This document shows, piece by piece, positions 6,669-52,257 of a DNA stretch of 54,442 bases (the first letter of the stretch is position 1; every line of letters starts with the position of its first letter). Source of the stretch: a virus; IMG/VR virus record IMGVR_UViG_3300013005_000022, positions 1 through 54,442 of that record; one strand, given 5' to 3'. The translations under genes and the position numbers were made by a program. The notes under the pieces were generated by a model. It had not been told where the DNA came from, ran no database searches, and was given only the letters and a program-made list of their open reading frames with translations.

Positions 6669-6971
6669 ATGGAAATACCTAATTTTGAAAATTTTATCAA
6701 CGAAGGAAAAGTTACCATCAATAAAATGAATTTCACCATACATGTATTCAACGATACTAAAGGGTTATCTGTTCAATTTATTCCGGATAGTAAAACTCTA
6801 GATAAATTTTCAAAAAATGAAATGGTTGAATCTATTAAAACAAAACTAACCTCAGCAATGCCTAAATTTGCGGATTCTCTATATTTTGCAATAGATAATT
6901 CAGCTGCTGGTTTAAGTTTCCGTGTTGATACATTTGAATTAAGTGAAATAATTACAAAAGCTATTAAATAA
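6669..6971 (+). CDS. Small protein with capsid-targeting-type N-terminus
   Basis: 100 residues of unknown function. The N-terminus is MEIPNFENFINEGKV. The NFENFINE stretch matches the aromatic-x-x-F-hydrophobic-x-E pattern of T4 internal-protein capsid-targeting sequences, and INE fits the gp21 (L/I)xE cleavage site. The remainder is a small alpha/beta protein with no motif I recognise. It is preceded by a late-promoter-like box and its stop shares a base with the next ATG. I infer that it is packaged in the head; the sequence does not prove this. Confidence 0.6.
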   Translation: MEIPNFENFINEGKVTINKMNFTIHVFNDTKGLSVQFIPDSKTLDKFSKNEMVESIKTKLTSAMPKFADSLYFAIDNSAAGLSFRVDTFELSEIITKAIK

Positions 6972-7336
6972 TGAAAACATTCAAAGAATATCTTATAGAA
7001 ACTAGCACTTTCTCTGAAGAAGAAATCAAGGCTCTTAATGAGAACCTTAAGACTGAGCTAACTGAAGAAGAAGAAGCTAAAGTAGACAAAGCTATAAAAG
7101 AATTTTGTAGTGAATACCTAGACAAAAATAAAGGAATGAAATCTTTCAATGAAGATCTAACTAATGAAGGTTTCTTGGGATCTATCTTAGGAGGTCTAAC
7201 CGGTTTTGCATTGGGTTCATCGGTTGGTAAAATCATTGCAAACGTATTGGGTATTGAAAAAGGTGTGATTTTCGATCTTCTAACTAGTAGATTAGTTGGT
7301 GCTGCATTAGGTGCTGCATTAGGAAAACGTCTATGA
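6971..7336 (+). CDS. Tagged protein with glycine-zipper hydrophobic C-terminus
   Basis: 121 residues. It begins MKTFKEYLIE, almost the same pattern as the T4 internal-protein tag (MKTYQEFIAE as I recall it). An acidic helix-rich stretch follows. Residues 56-66 read MKSFNEDLTNE, a second tag-like site. The last 55 residues are Gly/Ala-rich and hydrophobic (GFLGSILGGLTGFALGSSVG), as in membrane-inserting glycine zippers. Cleavage after E66 would free this peptide. A role as a packaged membrane-active protein is inference. The end overlaps the resolvase start by four bases. Confidence 0.6.
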   Translation: MKTFKEYLIETSTFSEEEIKALNENLKTELTEEEEAKVDKAIKEFCSEYLDKNKGMKSFNEDLTNEGFLGSILGGLTGFALGSSVGKIIANVLGIEKGVIFDLLTSRLVGAALGAALGKRL

Positions 7337-17891: not shown

Positions 17892-18149
17892 ATGAAAGCT
17901 ATTCCAGAATTCAACAAATTTAAAGAAGATGTAAATGAAGCACATGATAATGTCGAACATTACATGTTCTTTAAGAATATAGAAAATATCAAAGTAATGA
18001 TAGATGAATTGTTACAAATGAATCCTACTCAAGTAGATATGCTTTTGAACAATGGACATGATTGGGCAGCTGATCATATCACATCATCTAAAGACGATAT
18101 TCAAGAAGTTACCGACTTTCTTAAAAGTGAAATAAAACAACAATCATAA
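17892..18149 (+). CDS. Small tagged protein
   Basis: 85 residues, helical and acidic. It begins MKAIPEFNKFKEDVNE, matching the capsid-targeting pattern with a VNE cleavage site. The body (MFFKNIENIKVMIDELLQMN, then DWAADHITSSKDDIQEV) has no motif I know. A late-type promoter box precedes it. I infer that it is packaged. Confidence 0.55.
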   Translation: MKAIPEFNKFKEDVNEAHDNVEHYMFFKNIENIKVMIDELLQMNPTQVDMLLNNGHDWAADHITSSKDDIQEVTDFLKSEIKQQS

Positions 18150-18538: not shown

Positions 18539-19561
18539 ATGAAATTACTTAACTTTAATGAGTTTGTTACTCATTTAAATGAATCACAAGAACTTCTATT
18601 AGAAGCTTTCAATTCTAGTATCTTACAAAGCGTTGTAACCAAACAACGTGAAGGAGGAATTGATAAGAAATTCTTCGATGCTCTCTCTAAAATAGGAGTG
18701 GCTGCCTCTGAGGTAACTAATTTAGATATTACTACTCTTGCTCCAGCCGATGCAGCTAAATATGCTGCCGCAAACCCAAACCAAATTCTAATTTATTATT
18801 CAACAACAGAAAAACCAAATCCTTACGTATCACCAGACGGTAAATACTATTATGGAACTATTAAAGCTGATGTTCCTTTGGCAGTTGTTAAAGGTAAATT
18901 GTTCATGGGGTTGGCTTATGATCGTTGGGCTTCTAAAGGTGGAAAAGCCGAATATAAGATAGTTGCTGGTACTGATGCTGGTACATCATTAGGTCTTGGA
19001 AATAAAGATTCTCGCGGATATGGTTCTAGTGGAATTAATACACTTAAGAAAATGGCCGATGTTTCAGATGTAGTTTATGCTATTAATCCGGATACCGTTC
19101 CATCTTCTAAAGCTCTAAAAGCAGAAAGATCAGAATCTAGAGCTGGTGCAATCGCATACAAAACAGATAAAGAATTCAAAGCGGAAAATCAATCTCGATA
19201 TGAAGCTATTCTAAGAGATCGTGCTTCTAATGAAGATATTGATAAAATGGTTGGTGATGCTATTGATACTCTTACTCAACAAATTAAAGATGCAATCGCT
19301 AAAGGTGCTAAAACTTCATACGGAGATGTTCTTATTGGTTTAAATCCTAAAGGAAGAGAAGTTAAGATGTCCGATGCCGGTCACTTAATGAGTACTATCC
19401 TAAGAGATTATGGAACATATGCATCTGCTAAAAATGACGAAATTGAATCAGAAAAACGTCACGGTGAAACTGATAGATACTATCGTAATCGTTCAGCAGA
19501 AGCGGCAAAAGCTATTAAAGACGGTCTTAATAAAATTAAGAACTTAAATTACGCTTGGTAA
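18539..19561 (+). CDS. Tagged internal-type protein, 340 residues
   Basis: Begins MKLLNFNEFVTHLNE, matching the capsid-targeting pattern with LNE. The body is Ala/Lys-rich and looks globular: DVPLAVVKGKLFMGLAYDRW, GTDAGTSLGLGNKDSRGYG, MSDAGHLMSTILRDYGTYA. I recognise no enzyme motif. At this size it is one of the larger members of the tagged set, so a carried enzyme or effector, as with T4 Alt, is worth testing. It is followed after one base by the next gene. Confidence 0.55.
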   Translation: MKLLNFNEFVTHLNESQELLLEAFNSSILQSVVTKQREGGIDKKFFDALSKIGVAASEVTNLDITTLAPADAAKYAAANPNQILIYYSTTEKPNPYVSPDGKYYYGTIKADVPLAVVKGKLFMGLAYDRWASKGGKAEYKIVAGTDAGTSLGLGNKDSRGYGSSGINTLKKMADVSDVVYAINPDTVPSSKALKAERSESRAGAIAYKTDKEFKAENQSRYEAILRDRASNEDIDKMVGDAIDTLTQQIKDAIAKGAKTSYGDVLIGLNPKGREVKMSDAGHLMSTILRDYGTYASAKNDEIESEKRHGETDRYYRNRSAEAAKAIKDGLNKIKNLNYAW

Positions 19562-36311: not shown

Positions 36312-37718
36312 ATGTCAAAATTACAAACCGCTTTCGAATCTGCTTCTTTGAAAGAGAGAGTTTCAACTCTACTTGAGAGCATTGATAGAAATAACACATC
36401 AAAATTTATTGCAGAGCGTATTCTTTCTAGATTTGCTACTGTAGAAGTTTCTGAAGGATCTTCAACTGCATCTGATGCTTATACTTATTTAATGGGTAAA
36501 GGTGTTGATCAGGCTAAAGCTAAAGGAGTTGCTAGTGCCTCTATCAATGAATCAACTTCAAGAGTTGCTAATCCTTACTTAATCGAAAAAGTAAACATTA
36601 TGAGAACTGCAATCAAAGAATTGTCAGCTTACTCATGGATGCCAGTTATTAACGATTACATCAAAGAATGTAATAACATACTAACTGAAAATGAATTTGC
36701 TATCTTAGTTGAATCCGTTATTTTCGATCTAGAAAACCACAGAGAATCTAAATTCTACTCAAAAGCAATCTCTAAACTTCGTGAATGTTCAAATGCTGAA
36801 AATCCAGTATTTGCAGTATCTGAAGATCTTGATTCAGAAAAATGGATTCCTCTAGTTAAACAATTAGTAGAATATGCTGAAAAATCTAAAGGATCTATCG
36901 GTGGAAGTGATAATAACTACAAAGTAAGCAAAGTTTACTCTCCGGTTATTGTTAACGAAGAAGAAAACACTTACACATTCTATTCAAATGGAAAAATGTT
37001 AACTCTTAATGGTGAAGAAATCACTGAATCGGAAGTTACACCAGATGAAAAATTCAAAAGCCTACTTAACTTAATGGAATCATCTACTATCGTTAAAAAC
37101 GGTATGAGATTCTACCCTAAAGCTGGATCTATATTAGACGTTACTTTCGAAGCAGAAGGAACTAAAATCACAGTTGATGGTAAATTAGTTGAGGCTGCTA
37201 ACTTAGAAACTCACTTACTTAAAACCGGTCTTTTCAAATTCAACGAAATCGAAAAAGTTAATGTTATTAACCGTGCAATCGCTGAAGGTGCAAATATCAA
37301 AGAAATGGATTTCGCTTACAGAGTTGAATCTAAAAAATTCAAAGGTGTTTCTACTACGGTATTCACTATTGCTGAAAATATCTTCATTCAAAAGGTTAAT
37401 CCTGCAATGAAAGTTAATGAATTCGTTAAAGCTGAAAGCGCTGAAGCTGCAGTTTCTATCGTTAAAGAATTTATGAACTATGATATCACTAATTCTTTAA
37501 CTAAATTGATCGAGGCTGAAGAAGTTGAGAAAGCTAAAATAGCTGAAGAAAATTCTAAAATTGAAAGAAAAATTCAATTCTTACAAGAGAAATTAGAAGA
37601 ACTAAATAGAATTGATAAATTATCAATTTACGATGTTGAGCATATAAATAAAGCGAAAGCTATCGTAGAGAGCGAAATTGCTACTCAAACCGAAGAGCTT
37701 ACAAAAAAAAACTCTTAA
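36312..37718 (+). CDS. Internal/structural protein, zero-frame product
   Basis: 468 residues, helical, Glu/Lys-rich, beginning MSKLQTAFESASLKERVSTL and containing ASINES (an xNE site). The middle is mixed (VYSPVIVNEEENTYTFYSN, FYPKAGSILDVTFEAEGTK), and the last 70 residues form a coiled coil (KIERKIQFLQEKLEELNRID). The frame ends just after a run of nine A. Shifting -1 there continues into a further 65 sensible codons. Position among tagged and head genes suggests a head or prohead-core protein. Function unknown. Confidence 0.6.
   Translation: MSKLQTAFESASLKERVSTLLESIDRNNTSKFIAERILSRFATVEVSEGSSTASDAYTYLMGKGVDQAKAKGVASASINESTSRVANPYLIEKVNIMRTAIKELSAYSWMPVINDYIKECNNILTENEFAILVESVIFDLENHRESKFYSKAISKLRECSNAENPVFAVSEDLDSEKWIPLVKQLVEYAEKSKGSIGGSDNNYKVSKVYSPVIVNEEENTYTFYSNGKMLTLNGEEITESEVTPDEKFKSLLNLMESSTIVKNGMRFYPKAGSILDVTFEAEGTKITVDGKLVEAANLETHLLKTGLFKFNEIEKVNVINRAIAEGANIKEMDFAYRVESKKFKGVSTTVFTIAENIFIQKVNPAMKVNEFVKAESAEAAVSIVKEFMNYDITNSLTKLIEAEEVEKAKIAEENSKIERKIQFLQEKLEELNRIDKLSIYDVEHINKAKAIVESEIATQTEELTKKNS
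37703..37712 (+). other. Possible -1 ribosomal frameshift site
   Basis: AAAAAAAAAC in the zero frame reads ACA AAA AAA AAC, offering the slippery heptamers A_AAA_AAA and A_AAA_AAC. A -1 slip enters an open frame that runs to 37906. A homopolymer length error in the assembly (true length ten A) would give the same picture. Confidence 0.55.
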
Positions 37719-38275: not shown

Positions 38276-38677
38276 ATGTACGCAATTAAAACATATTCTG
38301 AATTCATAAACGAAGGTAAGTCTTCAAACTTCAATAGAACTTATACTATGGGTTCTACCTGGTGGGCTTTATGGAAAAAAGAAAACAAAGAAGATTTTGA
38401 TATAAAGCAAGATGCTTTTACCAAAACTTTTGAGGTTTATACGAAAGATAAAGAACCCAAATTAAAATTTGTTTTTGATTACGGACGAAATGTAGTTTTT
38501 ACCAACGATTCTCCTAAAATGTTTGAATTGGGAAGAATTAAACCTGCTGCTAAAGCAAGTGCAGAAGAGACCGATGCAGAAACTGGTAAAAAAGAAGTAA
38601 TTCCTGGAGCTGAAACCCCTAAAGAGGCAGAAGCCGAAGGGGAATTAACTACTGATAAAACCGAAGAAGAAGAATAA
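38276..38677 (+). CDS. Tagged protein with acidic tail
   Basis: 133 residues. It begins MYAIKTYSEFINE, one of the best capsid-targeting matches here (KTYSEFINE against T4 KTYQEFIAE as I recall it). A small beta domain follows (STWWALWKKENKEDFDIKQD, VYTKDKEPKLKFVFDYGR), then a disordered Ala/Glu-rich tail. Presumed packaged; function unknown. A late-type box lies inside its last codons. Confidence 0.62.
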   Translation: MYAIKTYSEFINEGKSSNFNRTYTMGSTWWALWKKENKEDFDIKQDAFTKTFEVYTKDKEPKLKFVFDYGRNVVFTNDSPKMFELGRIKPAAKASAEETDAETGKKEVIPGAETPKEAEAEGELTTDKTEEEE

Positions 38678-39625: not shown

Positions 39626-39928
39626 ATGAAAAACTTAATGTCTTTTGACGAATATGTCGTTAACGAAGCTGCTAAGAATGATGCTGCTGGTTTCAACCCA
39701 GAAAAAGAAACTACTAGCGACGAATTCAACCAAGAATTAACTCCTGGTAAAAAATACAATGTTAAAAAAGGAGAAGAAACTTCTCTTTGCATTTATCAAG
39801 GAAACACTGATGGTGTTTATGTATTCAATCCAGAAGCTAAAGAAGAAGGTGTAGTTACTGCTCCATGTGAATACACTGAAGCTGAACTTGATGCTGCTAT
39901 GAAAGCTGGTGAAATCACTGCTGCTTAA
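39626..39928 (+). CDS. Tagged protein with one PG-YQG-FN domain
   Basis: 100 residues. It begins MKNLMSFDEYVVNE, matching the capsid-targeting pattern. The rest is one copy of a small domain found twice in the next gene: ELTPGKKYNVKKGEE, SLCIYQGNTDGVYVFNPE, then TEAELDAAMKAGEITAA. The domain looks like an SH3-type beta barrel. Function unknown, but repetition across neighbouring packaged proteins suggests a useful binding module. Confidence 0.62.
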   Translation: MKNLMSFDEYVVNEAAKNDAAGFNPEKETTSDEFNQELTPGKKYNVKKGEETSLCIYQGNTDGVYVFNPEAKEEGVVTAPCEYTEAELDAAMKAGEITAA

Positions 39929-39949: not shown

Positions 39950-40522
39950 ATGAAGAATCTTAAAACATTTGCTGAATTCGTATTAGAATCTCAGGAATTT
40001 GATCCTGCTAAAACGACTGATATTGATGTTCTTTTACCTGCTATTAAATCTGCTTCAGAGCTAATGCCTGGTAAAGAATACGTTATCAATCTTGACGGTA
40101 AGACTCATGCCAATATGATGTATCAAGGTGTATCTGATGGTAATTACATCTTCAACTCTGAAGATATGAAAACCACATTAAACCTTAATACTGAACAAAT
40201 CAGTGGTGCCGTTTCAGTTGGAGGAGTTCAACAAGTAAACGAATCTAAATCTTATAAAGGAAGAGAAGTTTTCCCTAATTGGATTAATCCTAGTAGAGAT
40301 TTTGGTGCTCCAGTTAGTAAGACAAAAGATCTTAAACCTGGTGCTGAATATATCCTTTGGGAACCTGGAATGGACGTTTGGCAAGCTGAATGGATCTATC
40401 AAGGTTATACCGGTGGAAAACATATATTCAATGATTCTAATAAAGAAGCAGATCCTATGGTATTCACTCAATCTGAATTAGAAGAATACATTACAAGTGG
40501 TGACGTTATAAAGCAAAACTAA
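39950..40522 (+). CDS. Tagged protein with two PG-YQG-FN domains
   Basis: 190 residues. It begins MKNLKTFAEFVLE, a strong capsid-targeting match. Domain 1 (about 35-95): ELMPGKEYVINLDGK, MMYQGVSDGNYIFNSED. QQVNESKSYKGRE follows and contains another xNE site. Domain 2 (about 120-188): DLKPGAEYILWEPGMD, WIYQGYTGGKHIFNDSN, ELEEYITSGDVIKQ. With the preceding gene this makes three copies of the domain side by side. Function unknown. Confidence 0.62.
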   Translation: MKNLKTFAEFVLESQEFDPAKTTDIDVLLPAIKSASELMPGKEYVINLDGKTHANMMYQGVSDGNYIFNSEDMKTTLNLNTEQISGAVSVGGVQQVNESKSYKGREVFPNWINPSRDFGAPVSKTKDLKPGAEYILWEPGMDVWQAEWIYQGYTGGKHIFNDSNKEADPMVFTQSELEEYITSGDVIKQN

Positions 40523-43466: not shown

Positions 43467-45371
43467 ATGAGTCAAAAATATTTGCTCGTACTGGAAAGAT
43501 CCTCTTCTGAATTAGACATCAAAACAGAAGGTGATAATTACGTTCTAGAAGGAATCTTTACAGAGATCGGCGTTAAAAACAAAAACAATCGTATTTACGA
43601 TGAAAAAGAAGTTCTTCCTCACATAGATGAACTTTTACAAAAGGTAAAAGGGAGTAAACTTTTAGGAGAATTAGATCATCCAAAATCTTTTGAAGTTTCT
43701 TTAAAAAATGCATCACATGTTATTGAAGCATTAGATTACGACAAAAACACCAAAAAAGTAATGGGTAGAATTCGTCTACTTAATACTAGTGCTGGTAAAG
43801 AAGCAAAAGCATTAGTTGATGCTGGTATTCCTTTACATATTTCTAGTCGTGCTGCTGGTGTAGTTGAGAATAATGGTCACGTTAAAATCAAAAAAATGTT
43901 TACTTACGATTTAGTTGCAGATCCTGGATTTGCTAATGCTGAATTATCAAGAGTAAATGAAGCATTTGGATTTGAGATGGATGATACATTAGGACTTTAT
44001 GAAATACCTTATGATTCTAAGTTAGCTGAGTCTTTCGAAGATCATGATAAAATTGATGAAAACAAACAAACTCAAAACATAAACAAATCTTCAAAAATGA
44101 ATACAACGGAGAACATTTCAGTTGAAGATTTTAACGAATATACAAAAATCGTTAAAAACGAAATTGAAAACCTTAAAAAACAAATCGCTGAGAGTAACAC
44201 TGATGCTGTAACAGAGAGTAATGAATCTTTGGTTAAGTATACCGAAACTATCGCAAAAAGAGTAAATCAAATCCAAGAAAACCTAGGTTCTTTAAAAGAG
44301 AATTTCGATCACTTGGTATCACACAATGATTACATCGTAGAAAACCTTGAAAAGGTTAAAGATTACGCTGAAATGGTTGGTGAGAAATCAAATCAAGGAA
44401 TTAACTATTCAGAAAAACTTGCTGAATCAGTTGACCACTTAATTGAGTACACTAAAATGGTTGCTGAAAAAGCAGATCATGGAATCTCTTATACTGAGAG
44501 AATCGCTGAATCTCTTGATTCTTCAATCGAATATCAAAACCACGTTACCAAAGAAGTTAATGAGCGTTTTGCTTACCAAACTTACATCAACGAACAAGTT
44601 GATAACATCATTTCCCATACAGATTATATCGTTGAAGGTTGTGATTCTATTATCAAGTACACTGAGTACTTAAAAGAGAACCAATCAAGTTTAACTGGTT
44701 ATATGGACTATGTAGTTAAAGGAATTAACGAAGGAAAAGTTATTACTAACGATCCTACAGACGATAATAAATCAGAAAACGGAAACGAAGATGATTCTAA
44801 AGTAAATGAAGGTGCTGATGCTACTGCTTCTACTGCTACAACTGCTGACGAATTTGAAAAAGAAATTAACTCTAAAGTTGATGCTATTTTAGAATCCGCT
44901 AAAGCTCAAAAAGATGAAGTTAAAAAATCTAAAATGCATTTCTTTAATTTCTTAGCAGAATCAAAAAGAAACGAATTTGAAGCGTTAAATCCTGAAATGC
45001 AAGAAAAAATCGTTGGTCTTTTCGAGTCTACTAAATGGTACGGTTCAACTGATGCTAATAACATTTGGGAATCTGCTTTCGCTAAACCAGTTGCTAAAAA
45101 TGATTGGTTAGCTAATATGCCAAATCGTTATGCTGAAGCTTGGAATTCATTAAACGAATCACAAAAGAATGCTATTAAAGCTCAAGCTTCGGTAAGAGTT
45201 CTTGATACACAATATCAAATCGATTCTTTCTGGTCATCTAGAGATTTAAGAGTTACTAAAGTAGAATCTACTACTCCTGTTGCTCCAATCAACGAATCAT
45301 CTAAGTACGAAACTCCAACTGAATACATGGATACTGTAGCTGCTGAATTAAAAAGAAGATTCAAAAGATAA
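43467..45371 (+). CDS. 21: Prohead protease fused to a scaffold-like domain (gp21-gp22 fusion)
   Basis: 634 residues, three times T4 gp21 (212). Residues 1-195 are the protease: EGIFTEIGVKNKNNRIYDEK, GELDHP with catalytic H71, and HISSRAAG with Ser126/127. It should cut head proteins at (L/I)xE sites. From residue 200 a Gln/Asn/Lys-rich joint leads to Met211 (ATG 44097), then a coiled coil with twelve 14-residue repeats (255-422), an acidic linker and a helical end (TEYMDTVAAELKRRFKR). The second part sits where T4 has scaffold gp22. An internal start at 44097, in an A-rich context like true starts here, could make free scaffold, as lambda C/Nu3 does. Confidence 0.82.
   Translation: MSQKYLLVLERSSSELDIKTEGDNYVLEGIFTEIGVKNKNNRIYDEKEVLPHIDELLQKVKGSKLLGELDHPKSFEVSLKNASHVIEALDYDKNTKKVMGRIRLLNTSAGKEAKALVDAGIPLHISSRAAGVVENNGHVKIKKMFTYDLVADPGFANAELSRVNEAFGFEMDDTLGLYEIPYDSKLAESFEDHDKIDENKQTQNINKSSKMNTTENISVEDFNEYTKIVKNEIENLKKQIAESNTDAVTESNESLVKYTETIAKRVNQIQENLGSLKENFDHLVSHNDYIVENLEKVKDYAEMVGEKSNQGINYSEKLAESVDHLIEYTKMVAEKADHGISYTERIAESLDSSIEYQNHVTKEVNERFAYQTYINEQVDNIISHTDYIVEGCDSIIKYTEYLKENQSSLTGYMDYVVKGINEGKVITNDPTDDNKSENGNEDDSKVNEGADATASTATTADEFEKEINSKVDAILESAKAQKDEVKKSKMHFFNFLAESKRNEFEALNPEMQEKIVGLFESTKWYGSTDANNIWESAFAKPVAKNDWLANMPNRYAEAWNSLNESQKNAIKAQASVRVLDTQYQIDSFWSSRDLRVTKVESTTPVAPINESSKYETPTEYMDTVAAELKRRFKR
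44229..44732 (+). repeat. Twelve tandem 14-residue (42-nt) repeats in the scaffold domain
   Basis: Residues 255-422 divide without gaps into twelve units of 14, consensus x-I-x-Y-T-x-x-(I/V)-A-E-x-x-(D/N)-x. Examples: LIEYTKMVAEKADH, GISYTERIAESLDS, IISHTDYIVEGCDS. The hydrophobic spacing suits a regular coiled-coil rod. DNA repeats have diverged, so the pattern is held by selection at protein level. Confidence 0.8.
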
Positions 45372-45479: not shown

Positions 45480-47099
45480 ATGTACTTAATTAACGAAAGT
45501 GAAATTTTTTCAAAATGGGCTCCAATTATCGAGTCTAATACTGGAATCACTGAGCGTTCTAGAGTTGAGTGGATGTCAAAATATTGCCATAACCACGAAT
45601 TATATGAGAACAACTCATATGCTCAACTAGGCGCTGTGAACGGTATGGGTGCTACTCGTTTCCCTGGAAACCCTGGTACTCAAGATGCTTTTGACACTCA
45701 AACTACAGGTTCTGGTGATAAAGCTCACACATTGCTACCTCTTGCTATGCAAGTTGCAGCTCAAACAATCGGATTGGACTTAGTTCCAGTTGTGCCAATG
45801 CCTGGTCCAATGGGTGTTTTAACTTATTTGGATTTCGTATATGCTGGTGGTAAAACTGCTGGTACTGGTGCTGATGTTCCTTTGATGGTTAAATTGAACT
45901 ACGGTTCTAACACAATCCCAGGATTCACAGTAGGTGGTTCAGGTGCTTCAGGTGGTGCTACTTTCTACATGGTAGGTTCTTCTCGTCTTGACGGTATGCC
46001 AATCTTACGTGTTGCTGGTACTCTAACAGGTTCTAACACAATCGTAGATTGCTTAACTAACATCACAATCGGTGGAGCTTCTGCTGGTACTACTTCTAAC
46101 TATTCAGTTGAATTAGTTAAAGCTCTAGAAGATCACATCACTGGTTTCTCTGGTCAAGCTCTTGCTAACAACGACTACACTGGATTCGATATTAACGATC
46201 CATATAGCCGTAACGAAGGTGAAAGTACTGCAGATAACGTAATGAACTTAAGTCTATTCAACAAATCAGTTGAAGCTAAGACTTTCCAAGTTGCTGCTGC
46301 TGTTACTCGTGAGCAAGTTCAAGACTTGAAACAATTCGGTATCGATGCTGTATCTCAAGTAGAAGCAGTTCTTATCAACGAATTAACTCAATCAATCAAC
46401 AAGAACATTCTTGCTCGTATCTTCGCTCTAGGAGAAAGAAACCACGAATACGTAATCCGTACTCAAGGTCAAAACTTCTTCTTGAACTTAGGTGCTACTG
46501 CTGCTCTAGTTTCTTCAACTAGCACTAACTCTCCTGCATCTAACTTCGGTGCTTACATTCAATCAACTACTTTACGTGGTGCTACTATGGCTGCGACTGA
46601 AAACGTTAACTCTGCTTCAGAAAACTTACATACTCGTCAACGTAAAATTATGTCTAAAGTATTAGCTATCGCTAACTTAATCGCTATTAGAGGTCGTCGT
46701 GGACCAGCTACTTTCGTAGTTACTAACGGTCAAGTTTGTTCAGCTTTACAAGACGTTGCTGGATTCGTACCTGCTCCAATGGCTAACACAATTAACCAAA
46801 TGAGTGGTTCACTTTACCCAATCGGTACTTTAGCTGGTTTGGCAGTGTATAACGATCCAAACATGAACTGGTCAGATACTCGTATGTGTATCGGACGTAA
46901 AGGTGACGGTAACTCTCCAGGGTTAGTGTTCATGCCTTACTTAATGGCTGAAAGTGTTCAAACTATCGCTGAAGGTACTATGGCTCCTAAAGTTGCGGTT
47001 AAATCTCGTTACGCTTTAGTTGAAGCTGGTTTCCACCCAGAAACTATGTACTTAACTTCAGGTGTATCGTTGAACAACGCATTCGGTTCACTTGCTTAA
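45480..47099 (+). CDS. 23: Major capsid protein (gp23)
   Basis: 539 residues (T4 gp23 is 521). Builds the head lattice. The N-terminus (MYLINESEIFSKWAPIIESN) is a helical propeptide; a gp21-type site LYE lies at residues 41-43, after which the mature arm would begin NNSYAQLGAVNGMGATRFPG. The body shows AAQTIGLDLVPVVPMPGPMG, FQVAAAVTREQVQDLKQFGI, EAVLINELTQSINKNILARI and the C-terminal VKSRYALVEAGFHPETMYLT, all as in gp23. The gene uses more C-ending, cleaner codons than its neighbours, fitting high expression, and ends in a strong terminator. Confidence 0.93.
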   Translation: MYLINESEIFSKWAPIIESNTGITERSRVEWMSKYCHNHELYENNSYAQLGAVNGMGATRFPGNPGTQDAFDTQTTGSGDKAHTLLPLAMQVAAQTIGLDLVPVVPMPGPMGVLTYLDFVYAGGKTAGTGADVPLMVKLNYGSNTIPGFTVGGSGASGGATFYMVGSSRLDGMPILRVAGTLTGSNTIVDCLTNITIGGASAGTTSNYSVELVKALEDHITGFSGQALANNDYTGFDINDPYSRNEGESTADNVMNLSLFNKSVEAKTFQVAAAVTREQVQDLKQFGIDAVSQVEAVLINELTQSINKNILARIFALGERNHEYVIRTQGQNFFLNLGATAALVSSTSTNSPASNFGAYIQSTTLRGATMAATENVNSASENLHTRQRKIMSKVLAIANLIAIRGRRGPATFVVTNGQVCSALQDVAGFVPAPMANTINQMSGSLYPIGTLAGLAVYNDPNMNWSDTRMCIGRKGDGNSPGLVFMPYLMAESVQTIAEGTMAPKVAVKSRYALVEAGFHPETMYLTSGVSLNNAFGSLA

Positions 47100-47799: not shown

Positions 47800-50277
47800 A
47801 TGATGACTAAAAATCTAGAAAATCTTATTAGAGAAGAGTATCTAAGTGCTCTGTATGAACAACAAATAATAGAGAATTTATCAAATACTGAAATCGATAC
47901 ATTATTCAATGAATTTATTTCTGAAGTATCTGAACAATTCGATTTTGAAATTCCTGAAGAATCAACTATCGAGGAGATTTTAGAATCTTTCGAAGATTGG
48001 GATCTTACGGAAAATGAATCATACACAAAACTAATAGAGGCTATTGGTAAACGTCCGAGTGCTACAAAAAGAAAGCCGACAAAACCAAAAAGACCTATGG
48101 CGAATAAGCCAAAACCTAATCAGAATAAACCTAAGCCAAAACCTAAGGCTAAACCTGAACCTAAGGCTAAACCTGAACCTAAAAAAATGGATGTTAAACC
48201 TAAAGGGGAAAAGCCAGAAGGTAAAAAACCTGAAGGTCCTACTAAGGCTGAAAAGGAAGAAAAGATATCAGCCGAGAAGCAAAAGATTAAAGATCAAATT
48301 GATTCTCTTAATACTCAAAAGGATTCTCTTCAAGGAAAAGATGATAACAAATCTCGTGAATTAGAAACGAAGATTAAATCTCTAGATGCAGAAAAAACTA
48401 AATTAACTGCAGTACAAAAGAAAGAATCCGGAGATGAAAAGGCTGGTGATTATGCCAAATTATCCTCTCTCAAAAAAGCAGAAGCTGATGCATATGCTGC
48501 ATGGACTAAAGTTAAGAACGAAACATCGGAATCTGTAACTGAAGCAGAAGATGAAGAAGTTGAAGCTAGTACCAAAGAAGCTAAAATTAAATTCTTAAAT
48601 GCTCGTATTGCAACTCTTAAACAACAAGAGGCAATGGCCGATTCCCCTGAAGGAAAAACTAAACAGAAAGAAGCCGTTGCTAATGCAGAAAAAGAACTTG
48701 TCGCTTTAGGTGCTGAATCTACTGACGGTGAATCTACCGAAGAGAAAGAGAAATCTCTTAAAGATGTTAAGAAGGAAAATGCAGAACTTAATAAACAACT
48801 TAATACTGCAAAAACCGAAAAACTTAAAGCTGATAATAAAGTAAAAGAGATCAAAGATCAAATTGCTAATGAACAAGATCCGGCTAAGAAAACCGAACTT
48901 AATAAACAACTTAATGCTGCTTCAGAAGAGGCATCGATAAAAGGTAATGAAGTATCTGAACTTCAACCAAAGGTTGATGATTCTGATGAAGAATTAGAAG
49001 CCGCAAAAGAAAAAAGCGGTGGATCTGATAAAGATAAGAAAGAGAAGATATCTGCTGCCGAAAAGAAGATTGAAGATATTAATTCTAAACTAGAATCAGA
49101 AGAAGATCCGGAAAAAAGAGATATTCTTAAACAAAAACGAAAAGAAGCAAAGGCAGAACTTGCTAAACTCACTGGTAAAGAAGCAGAAGAAGATACTGAT
49201 TCTGAATCTGATAGAATGCAAGATGAATTAGTCAATAAGAAAAAAATTGAGGCAATTCAAACTAAAGTTGATGAACTTAACGATCAATTAGCTGCAGAAA
49301 AAGATCCAGCTAAAAGAAAGTTAATTAAAGATAAAATCAAAAAAGAGAAAGCCGAAATATCTAAACTTAAAGGCGAAGAACCCACTGAAGAAGAACCTAG
49401 TGATGATGAAAAGGCTGCTGATACTGAAGCGGAAAATGCAGATAAAATTGCAAAACTTGAAGCTGAACTTGAAAAACTAGAATCCGATGCCGATTCTAAA
49501 GTGTCCGCTCATGAAGAAGCAGTACAGGCTCAAATGAAAAAAACCAACGATATAGTTGGTTGGAATTTAATGCTTAAGAGACTTGCTACTCGTATGAGAA
49601 TGGAAAATATGGTTGAGTATAACAACGCTAAAATTCAACTTGCTTCTCCTGATCTAAAAGACAAATTAGAAGAAAAAGATAAAGAACTTGAAAAACTAGT
49701 TTCTCAAGCAGATGAAGATCTTAAAAAGGCAGAAGATGAAAATAATAAAGAGCACGCTAAAGATCCAGAAGTTAAAGATGCTCAAGCAGTTGCTGATACC
49801 GAAGAAGCTGAAGGAGATACTCAAAAACCGAGCGGATCTTCTAAATCTAGTGAAGATGACGTTGAAGCTAAATTTGCTGCACAGAAAAAAGCTAGAGAAG
49901 ATGCCGAAAAGGCTGCTCAAACTAAAGGAAGAAATGCCGATATTGAAGCTAAAGGAAATACTCCACAAGAAAAGGCCAAAGATTACTCTATTAAAAAATT
50001 AGAAACTAAAATATCTGCTATTTCAACTGCATGGCAAAAAATGCAAGATGATGCTAGTAAAGCTAAAGGTAAAGATAAAGAAAAATTAGATATGAAAGCT
50101 TCGGCAATCGAGAAAAATCTTAATCTTGCTAAGGAAGAGTTAACCAAATTAAAAAGTGGATCTTCTACACCAAATGAATCATTTGAAGATTTTGAATCTG
50201 GTGTTTGGGCAATCGACTTTATCCTAGAAAGAGTTGAAAACCAAATGAATGAATATCAATTCTTAATTAGCGAATAA
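47800..50277 (+). CDS. Large charged coiled-coil protein with Lys-Pro region
   Basis: 825 residues. Residues 1-80 form an acidic helical head (MMTKNLENLIREEYLSALYE, EEILESFEDWDLTENES). A Lys/Pro stretch follows at about 85-150 (KPKPNQNKPKPKPKAKPEPK). About 600 residues of Lys/Glu/Ala/Asp coiled coil come next, with repeated modules built around EEDPEKRDILKQKRKEAKAE and EKDPAKRKLIKDKIKKEKAE. The end (SFEDFESGVWAIDFILERVE, NQMNEYQFLISE) is ordered again. Possible roles are prohead core, tape-like ruler or internal DNA-binding protein. No family assigned. Confidence 0.55.
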   Translation: MMTKNLENLIREEYLSALYEQQIIENLSNTEIDTLFNEFISEVSEQFDFEIPEESTIEEILESFEDWDLTENESYTKLIEAIGKRPSATKRKPTKPKRPMANKPKPNQNKPKPKPKAKPEPKAKPEPKKMDVKPKGEKPEGKKPEGPTKAEKEEKISAEKQKIKDQIDSLNTQKDSLQGKDDNKSRELETKIKSLDAEKTKLTAVQKKESGDEKAGDYAKLSSLKKAEADAYAAWTKVKNETSESVTEAEDEEVEASTKEAKIKFLNARIATLKQQEAMADSPEGKTKQKEAVANAEKELVALGAESTDGESTEEKEKSLKDVKKENAELNKQLNTAKTEKLKADNKVKEIKDQIANEQDPAKKTELNKQLNAASEEASIKGNEVSELQPKVDDSDEELEAAKEKSGGSDKDKKEKISAAEKKIEDINSKLESEEDPEKRDILKQKRKEAKAELAKLTGKEAEEDTDSESDRMQDELVNKKKIEAIQTKVDELNDQLAAEKDPAKRKLIKDKIKKEKAEISKLKGEEPTEEEPSDDEKAADTEAENADKIAKLEAELEKLESDADSKVSAHEEAVQAQMKKTNDIVGWNLMLKRLATRMRMENMVEYNNAKIQLASPDLKDKLEEKDKELEKLVSQADEDLKKAEDENNKEHAKDPEVKDAQAVADTEEAEGDTQKPSGSSKSSEDDVEAKFAAQKKAREDAEKAAQTKGRNADIEAKGNTPQEKAKDYSIKKLETKISAISTAWQKMQDDASKAKGKDKEKLDMKASAIEKNLNLAKEELTKLKSGSSTPNESFEDFESGVWAIDFILERVENQMNEYQFLISE

Positions 50278-50765
50278 TGGAAATCATTAGACAAAATCTA
50301 GGAAAACGTCCAACCAAGTTCGGTATAGTTCTAGATCGACTTAAACCTAGATATCAAAGAATATTAAAGAAGAATCCTATCATTCGTAATTACTCAACGG
50401 ATGATAGGATCCTTAAATGTATCTTCAAAATAGAAGATAGATTAATACAAGTATCTCATCTCAAAAGAGTTTTTATTGAACCTAAAAGCAGAGAAATATC
50501 CACTTTTAAAATCATCAGAGAATCATATCATCAATTCGATTGGAATTGTACTTTTTGCAATAAACCAATCAAATCTCGAATAGATAATTATGAACCAGGA
50601 AACTTTACTTGCACGAAATGCGAGAATACATATATTAAAGGAACTCGAAAAATTCCTAGACGAATAATCGAGGAATCTTTAAGATTCACAGAACATGTGA
50701 AAACTTTAATGAAGACTGATCAAAAGAAAATTATAAAATATATCAAGAAAAATGATGAATCTTAA
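50277..50765 (+). CDS. Zinc-ribbon protein, unknown function
   Basis: 162 residues. A basic first half (LGKRPTKFGIVLDRLKPRYQ) is followed by a zinc ribbon, CTFCNKPIKS and CTKCENTYI, with 20-odd residues between the pairs, then a basic helical end. Nucleic-acid binding is likely from charge and ribbon. It overlaps both neighbours at start and stop, so it is translated with the structural genes around it. Confidence 0.55.
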   Translation: MEIIRQNLGKRPTKFGIVLDRLKPRYQRILKKNPIIRNYSTDDRILKCIFKIEDRLIQVSHLKRVFIEPKSREISTFKIIRESYHQFDWNCTFCNKPIKSRIDNYEPGNFTCTKCENTYIKGTRKIPRRIIEESLRFTEHVKTLMKTDQKKIIKYIKKNDES

Positions 50766-52257
50766 GTACTTCAGTGATTTTGTTAATGAAGCAAAAACTA
50801 CTGACGCAAAAACTGTTAAAAATCCGAGAGTTAAACTAGTACTACTAACGAATGCTAGTAAAGAATCTCATACCGTTCCTTCGTTCGAAGCAGAATGTAA
50901 AAAAATGGGTGTTGAATTCATCGTTATTGATATCAGTACAGCAATGATTGCTGATGGTAAAGACGGTAACTTCTTCATCAGTGATAAAGAAAATCCAAAA
51001 GGCCTTAAGATCAATGCAGATAATACTGCAGTTTTAACTCGTCGTGGAGTTGTTAGAAATACTTATACAAAATCACTAGTTGAGAAGTTAGAAGATAATA
51101 ACTTCTTTGTTGTAAATACACTTGAAGCTATTATGGCTTGTGAGAACAAATATGTTACTACAAAAATCCTTAAAGAAGCTGGACTTCCAGTTCCTAAAAC
51201 TGCTATTGTTGATGGAGAAGACTCTATTGAAAGAGCGGTTAAAGATGTTGGTGGTAAATTCCCAGTAGTTTGTAAAATCCTTTCTGGATCTCAAGGAATT
51301 GGAGTTTCTATTGTAGATTCTCTTGCCTCTCTTAAATCTGTTTTACAGACCATATGGAAAGTTGATCCCTCTGTTGAAATCTTGATTCAAGAGAAGATCG
51401 AATCTGAATACGATTTAAGAATACACGTTTTGACGAGAAAATTCAACTCGCCAACACCAGAAGACACCGATTCGGTACTTCTTGGTTACATGAGAAGAAA
51501 TCGTGTTAAAAAAGACTTCCGTACTAATTACTCTTTAGGCGGAACCGTTGAAAAAACTAAAGTAACACCAGAACAAGAGAAAATAGCTATCGAATCAGCT
51601 AAGGCTGTTGGTTGTAATTGGTGTGGAGTTGATATTATCGTAGATAAGAAAACTGGTGCTAATTACGTTCTAGAAGTTAATGCTTCTCCAGGAACTACTG
51701 GTTTGAAAAAAGCTACTGGTGTTAACGTTGTTAAAGATATCGTTCAATTCTTAATGGATAAAACCAACTGGATTCGTTCTAGAAAACGTGTTGGTTTCCG
51801 TGAAGTAATTCAGATCCCTAATCTTGGTGATGTGGTTGCTAAATTTGATACTGGTAATGGATCTCTTTCTTGTACACTTACATACGATAAAATAGATGTT
51901 AATGAAAAAGAAAAACTAGTTAAATGGACTTTAGGTAAAAGAGATTTTGAATCTAAATTTGTCGGATTCACCGAAACCGAAGTTGGTGATACTGTAGAGA
52001 AACGTCCAGTTATTGAAATGGATATTCAATTTGCTGGTAAAGTATACAAGAAAGTTCCGGTTGCATTAGATGATCGTTCTACCAAAAGTACTAAATTCCT
52101 TGTGAATCGTAAATTCATGGAGAGAATTGGTTGTTCAGTAGATCCAATGAGAACTTTCGTGGTAACTTCATTTCCTGAAGATTATCATGGTGGAGAAGCT
52201 AAAAAGGATCCACATGCAGGAATTATCTTTGAATGGGATAAAAAGAAAACTAAATAA
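50752..52257 (+). CDS. Tagged ATP-grasp ligase fused to a RimB-like aspartic protease
   Basis: 501 residues in three parts. Residues 1-13, MMNLKYFSDFVNE, form a capsid-targeting tag with a VNE cleavage site. About 30-335 is a RimK-like ATP-grasp domain: CENKYVTTKILKEAGLPVPK, FPVVCKILSGSQGIGVSIVD, SEYDLRIHVL, YVLEVNASPGTTG (E308, N310 as metal ligands). It would join an amino acid to a carboxyl group using ATP. About 345-480 resembles the retropepsin-like ATP-dependent zinc protease/RimB domain: VAKFDTGNGSLSCTL with catalytic D366, KRPVIEMDIQFAGKVYKKVP and CSVDPMRTFVV. A ligase and a protease in one packaged protein suggests addition and removal of peptide tags. Confidence 0.78.
   Translation: MMNLKYFSDFVNEAKTTDAKTVKNPRVKLVLLTNASKESHTVPSFEAECKKMGVEFIVIDISTAMIADGKDGNFFISDKENPKGLKINADNTAVLTRRGVVRNTYTKSLVEKLEDNNFFVVNTLEAIMACENKYVTTKILKEAGLPVPKTAIVDGEDSIERAVKDVGGKFPVVCKILSGSQGIGVSIVDSLASLKSVLQTIWKVDPSVEILIQEKIESEYDLRIHVLTRKFNSPTPEDTDSVLLGYMRRNRVKKDFRTNYSLGGTVEKTKVTPEQEKIAIESAKAVGCNWCGVDIIVDKKTGANYVLEVNASPGTTGLKKATGVNVVKDIVQFLMDKTNWIRSRKRVGFREVIQIPNLGDVVAKFDTGNGSLSCTLTYDKIDVNEKEKLVKWTLGKRDFESKFVGFTETEVGDTVEKRPVIEMDIQFAGKVYKKVPVALDDRSTKSTKFLVNRKFMERIGCSVDPMRTFVVTSFPEDYHGGEAKKDPHAGIIFEWDKKKTK

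Follow-up and report, generated by a model that had tools for sequence, protein, structure and literature searches.

A fused RimK-like ligase and RimB-like retropepsin with a capsid-targeting tag, a likely virion-packaged enzyme of T4-like phages

Ribosomal protein S6 receives glutamates from RimK. RimB, which a sequence-only reading of the locus described here had called a protease of the same pathway, is more specifically a retropepsin: it takes poly-glutamate off S6 and has a stimulating effect on RimK, and RimK also makes free poly-glutamate (PMC11957791). In the P. aeruginosa structure of RimK, the glutamate chain is bound by R64, R189 and N262 (PMC10092738), and K46, R114 and R137 of RloA are predicted to contact poly-glutamate (PMC12239564). 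Among phages, the internal proteins of T4 carry a capsid-targeting propeptide of 10-19 residues that is removed by gp21, and Alt provides the precedent for a packaged enzyme (PMC9026906).

The protein under study is encoded on the plus strand (50752-52257) of the window, the whole stretch of DNA that was analyzed (54,442 nt, part of a 160,448-bp virus record). Its reading frame is open throughout, starts with ATG, encodes 501 amino acids and lies in a tight operon, with a 14-base overlap with the upstream ORF and a one-base overlap with the downstream ATG. The product has a three-part architecture of capsid tag, RimK-like ligase and RimB-like retropepsin, and domain, structure and conservation evidence identify it as a fused RimK-RimB enzyme. 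PHROG matches comprise a T4-type late sigma factor, head closure, DNA end protector, portal, head maturation protease and the major capsid protein (45480-47099, plus strand, phrog_138, 2.5e-36). A gp44-type clamp loader was also matched in this phage, and on all these matches together we regard it as T4-like. The gene immediately upstream of the enzyme (50277-50765, plus strand, 14-nt overlap) is predicted to encode a Zn-ribbon protein. This neighbor is conserved in the window's clade, and it was found directly upstream of the enzyme gene, or one gene removed, in 21 loci. Two genes upstream of the enzyme lies the gene of an 825-aa Lys/Glu-rich coiled protein (47800-50277), for which no database match was found; its position is conserved in 16 related loci.

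The ligase domain (aa 28-338; 50833-51765, plus strand) was identified by Pfam, NCBIfam and Foldseek. The Pfam RimK model matched aa 131-333 (E=8.7e-34), and TIGR00768 (RimK family alpha-L-glutamate ligase) scored 156.2 bits, above its cutoff of 143.4. This broad family cutoff was the only NCBIfam cutoff that the protein exceeded, and no equivalog cutoff was reached. The S6-specific RimK model NF007764 gave 96.8 bits, far under its equivalog cutoff of 331 bits, so that substrate identity with RimK should not be assumed. In a Foldseek search, the AlphaFold2 model of the 501-aa protein (mean pLDDT 86.4, 45 sequences) had Pseudomonas RimK (7qys) as its best match (E=1.4e-23, TM 0.88 by target length), and it also matched the RimK-RpsF complex (5zk6). 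Conservation was counted over 83 non-identical viral homologues. The predicted metal ligands E308 (51673-51675) and N310 (51679-51681, both plus strand) were invariant (83/83), as were D294, R97, R223, R257 and N259. By alignment, the glutamate contacts R64, R189 and N262 of RimK correspond to R97, R223 and N310, respectively. The further RimK contacts S7, R8, S68, H215 and R216 are apparently not conserved, as read from alignments.

A RimB/RloA-type retropepsin domain occupies aa 342-478 (51775-52185, plus strand). With PF05618 (Zn_protease), the whole protein scored 23.4 bits and the isolated domain 26.4 bits, both slightly below the cutoff of 27 bits; 32 of 39 family members matched the model at E<=0.01 (best 8.6e-9). 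The NCBIfam RloA2 model also matched (E=2.5e-7). A profile built from 39 relatives found RloA2 (PDB 9g59, E=5.2e-12), together with RloA (9g58) and Legionella Lpg0085. When the protease domain was modeled separately (pLDDT 89.2), the top Foldseek matches were RloA2 (E=9.3e-9), Lpg0085 and RloA, followed by HIV-1 protease. The active-site motif D366-T367-G368 (51847-51855, plus strand) is almost fully conserved, with D and G in 83/83 and T in 81/83 homologues, and the presence of one DTG per chain implies dimerization. The next residue is Asn in all 83 homologues, and the Ala reported at this position for RloA was absent in 83/83. The RloA contacts K46, R114 and R137 were mapped by profile alignment and residue spacing (arginines 23 apart in the RloA protein, 24 apart here) to K364 (72/83), R418 (81/83) and R442 (83/83). 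Both enzyme domains, with E308, N310 and D366 as their key residues, had been proposed in the sequence-only reading; the structure predictions confirm the two folds, and the conservation data bear out the three residues.

The phage enzyme can be compared with several known systems. It shares the ATP-grasp fold, the metal ligands and several glutamate contacts with RimK (TIGR00768 family), but identity is about 25%, the score is below the S6 equivalog cutoff, and the phage ligase is fused and tagged. Its protease has the DTG active site, the retropepsin fold and the predicted poly-Glu-contacting K/R residues of RimB/RloA (PF05618), but reads DTGN instead of DTGA and is located C-terminal to a ligase, whereas RimB and RloA are free-standing. 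The RimB-RimK fusions of Pseudomonadota also unite both enzyme domains in one chain, but in the opposite order, without a capsid tag, and with a RimK part that groups with bacterial RimK. Phage RimK-like ligases also occur in Melnitz and cyanophages, in these cases without a protease domain, and the Melnitz protein keeps a tag-like start (FSQFITEE). Finally, T4 Alt and the internal proteins IPI-III have a capsid-targeting propeptide, cut by gp21 in T4 and predicted to be cut here. Alt is packaged and acts on a host protein, as proposed for the phage enzyme, but as an ADP-ribosyltransferase it has unrelated chemistry.

The fusion is widespread in phages. A profile scan of IMG/VR yielded at least 580 relatives among the 599 candidates listed, a number that may include RimK-only proteins; nearly all of the best 80 span both domains. 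The full fusion, which the sequence-only reading had suggested looking for in other phages, was present in the 83 viral homologues. Isolates that carry it are Pelagibacter phage Mosig and Yersinia phages YerA41 and GN1. There are at least two gene settings: the window's clade has the fusion gene beside capsid and coiled-coil genes, marine phages have it in the regA/gp44/DNA polymerase region, and in many other loci it is near the DNA polymerase gene. All occurrences of the RimK-RimB order that we found were in phages or in contigs that are probably from phages. Two contigs with the ligase-first fusion, L118 (410,106 bases) and L119 (400,076 bases), were binned as Firmicutes/Erysipelotrichaceae genomes; since they also carry a T4-type portal gene, they are probably misbinned jumbo phages. 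The portal gene on these apparently bacterial contigs counters a bacterial origin of the RimK-RimB order. L117, L120 and a set of small contigs (L110-L116) also seem to come from phages.

Protease-first fusions were found in Pseudomonadota (L124-L128, L130 and L251; mainly Caulobacterales, Algimonas), suggesting that the two activities were linked independently. Sampling of two phyla with the protease profile revealed no new fusions, because RimB is rarely carried there. In a midpoint-rooted FastTree phylogeny, the phage ligases are separated from the sampled bacterial ones, and the RimK-only Melnitz protein nests among the fused proteins, suggesting that it has lost the protease domain. A single origin is likely, with a support of only 0.22 at one deep node of the tree.

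The amino-terminus of the enzyme carries a predicted capsid-targeting propeptide (MMNLKYFSDFVNE/A, aa 1-14; 50752-50793, plus strand; the slash marks the predicted cut after E13), identified from conservation, a regular expression and disorder. The motif reads YFSDFVNE/A. E13 is invariant in 18 aligned relatives, and residues 1-24 are disordered in the AlphaFold2 model. The T4 motif has L or I three residues before the cut; in the window this residue is V (VNE/A), and in relatives it is L, I or V. Among the gene-like ORFs of the genome, 18 of 208 have the tag motif within the first 28 residues, compared to 0.75 in shuffled sequences and 0.99 in internal windows (at most 4 in 500), and the major capsid protein is one of them. 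The tag is also present in 66 of the 83 fused homologues versus 1.0 in shuffles, and among homologues less than 70% identical to one another in 28 of 37 versus 0.4 expected. The sequence right after the tag diverges among homologues while the tag stays. A chance origin of the tag was rejected on the basis of three shuffle or internal-window tests.

The expected tag processor is the T4 gp21-type head maturation protease (43467-45371, plus strand, phrog_207, 4.6e-43), which itself contains many internal sites of the LxE type followed by A, G or S. For the pattern [LIV]xE[AGS] we counted 17 sites against an expectation of 2.7 (no more than 9 in 2000 shuffles), and no other plus-strand ORF of at least 150 aa reaches this density. 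The sequence-only reading had claimed a capsid-targeting tag, and the tagged ORFs, protease sites and homologues bear this out statistically. Fused to the head protease is a long tail rich in probable sites for the protease itself, which gives the impression of a protease and a scaffold combined in a single protein. The second highest density of sites of this type (10 sites) was found in a 468-aa protein without PHROG match (36312-37718), possibly a vertex or scaffold protein.

Further tagged genes are located in the window at 6669-6971, 6971-7336, 17892-18149, 18539-19561, 38276-38677, 39626-39928 and 39950-40522, and in genome coordinates at 74070-75438, 123815-131198 and 139599-140162, with several grouped at 126-131 kb. 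They probably encode packaged proteins, mostly without an assigned function. With the tag analysis, about 18 tagged proteins of a single uncultivated phage become available for testing.

A few clades of fused homologues have no recognizable tag. One of them (L067-L073, L077 and L079) has a conserved start, LLEKFVFKG or EFVFQG, in place of the LxE tag. A different cleavage motif was considered for the untagged clades and rejected, as their proteases show no clear difference.

Experimental evidence for packaging comes from Yersinia phage YerA41. Its fused homologue (P0003) is 33% identical over 85% of the query and is annotated as a structural protein. The YerA41 product g112, 'Ribosomal protein modification protein', was identified by LC-MS/MS in purified particles (PMC7354516 Table 3); we equated g112 with YerA41_066 by the gene order beside the ribonucleotide reductase genes. 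The YerA41 copy is without a recognizable tag, and the particle list also includes metabolic enzymes such as ribonucleotide reductase (PMC7354516), so that carry-over is possible. Together, the tag statistics and the LC-MS/MS detection of this distant relative make it likely that the 501-aa enzyme is packaged in the virion. The packaged-enzyme idea of the sequence-only reading is well supported, with experimental virion support confined to YerA41.

With moderate confidence, we favor the interpretation that T4-like phages package in their virions a bifunctional enzyme for protein modification, comparable to Alt, which writes and trims C-terminal glutamate chains. The N-terminal tag would dock the enzyme into the prohead core, where the gp21-type protease would cut after E13, a step with strong support from sequence statistics. 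The enzyme would then reside in the mature particle and be ejected with the DNA like T4 Alt, in line with the one distant relative. The conservation of catalytic and substrate residues suggests that the ligase would attach glutamates to the C-terminus of a protein through its ATP-grasp domain, and that the retropepsin, as a dimer, would trim the chains. The retropepsin possibly also stimulates the ligase, as RimB does RimK, and the fusion would keep writer and eraser at a fixed ratio. We infer this glutamate chemistry, the writer-eraser coupling and the delivery at infection. The target would belong to the host, with ribosomal protein S6 as the most plausible choice, and its modification would shift host translation before phage gene expression; S6 and translation are plausible but speculative as a target. 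Against the favored interpretation stand the low score in the S6-specific RimK model (96.8 versus 331 bits), the apparent lack of conservation at several RimK contact positions, the DTGN instead of the RloA-type DTGA, the few untagged clades, and the YerA41 copy without obvious tag and with possible carry-over in particles.

Alternatively, the enzyme could act in head assembly and add or trim glutamates on a packaged phage substrate, which we consider unlikely. The weak candidate substrate from a screen for C-terminal glutamates is a tagged 133-aa protein (38276-38677, plus strand, YSEFINEG...) that ends in EEEE. Among 239 gene-like ORFs, no other ends in EE or has at least four E in the last six residues, and relatives of this protein end in EEE or PEEE, except for one that ends in DDEFKI. 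However, it has no detectable homologue in 10 of the 14 fusion-bearing contigs searched, some of which are fragments. Gene context is similarly divided, as the enzyme gene adjoins capsid and coiled-coil genes in the window's clade, whereas in marine phages it is found with the replication and regulatory genes regA, gp44 and gp43. The ATP supply within a closed head is also doubtful. Trimming or extending of head proteins is a weaker rival to S6 and translation as the target.

It is similarly doubtful that the protein is a packaged or early counter-defense enzyme whose product or substrate is a soluble acidic peptide, or which ligates another amino acid, and which leaves S6 unmodified. ATP-grasp ligases of the RimK family accept many substrates, the phage protein exceeds only the broad family cutoff and no equivalog cutoff, and free poly-glutamate is a further RimK product (PMC11957791), but the poly-glutamate-contacting residues are conserved in both domains. 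An ordinary unpackaged intracellular RimK-RimB enzyme, with an N-terminal motif of other role or inherited as decoration, is improbable: it would fit the untagged clades, the position among replication genes in marine phages and the listing of YerA41 g112 ahead of the late genes, but not the tag retention below 70% identity next to diverging sequence (28/37 versus 0.4 expected), the tag in about 17 other genes of the phage, or the distant YerA41 protein in particles.

The architecture is real, widespread and apparently undescribed. The open-licence literature mentions RimK-like genes in phages and does not describe the fusion or its packaging, with earlier mention elsewhere being possible; RimK goes unmentioned in the Melnitz paper. 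Packaged takeover enzymes as a general idea are already known, and the chemistry and the writer-eraser coupling are, as far as we found, new for phages.

Taken as a whole, we only tentatively propose that T4-like phages deliver a polyglutamylation writer-eraser with their DNA, which would retune host ribosomes or another host protein before phage expression, and that this would be a takeover mode not described before, conserved from marine pelagiphages to 400-kb jumbo phages in gut MAGs. If true, phages would have a new route to alter a host protein at time zero, by packaging a glutamate ligase together with its antagonist in one chain; T4 Alt and the other packaged takeover enzymes known so far rely on different chemistry. 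The RimK/RimB system, which is poorly understood, would also gain a viral counterpart from which single-chain enzymes could readily be obtained.
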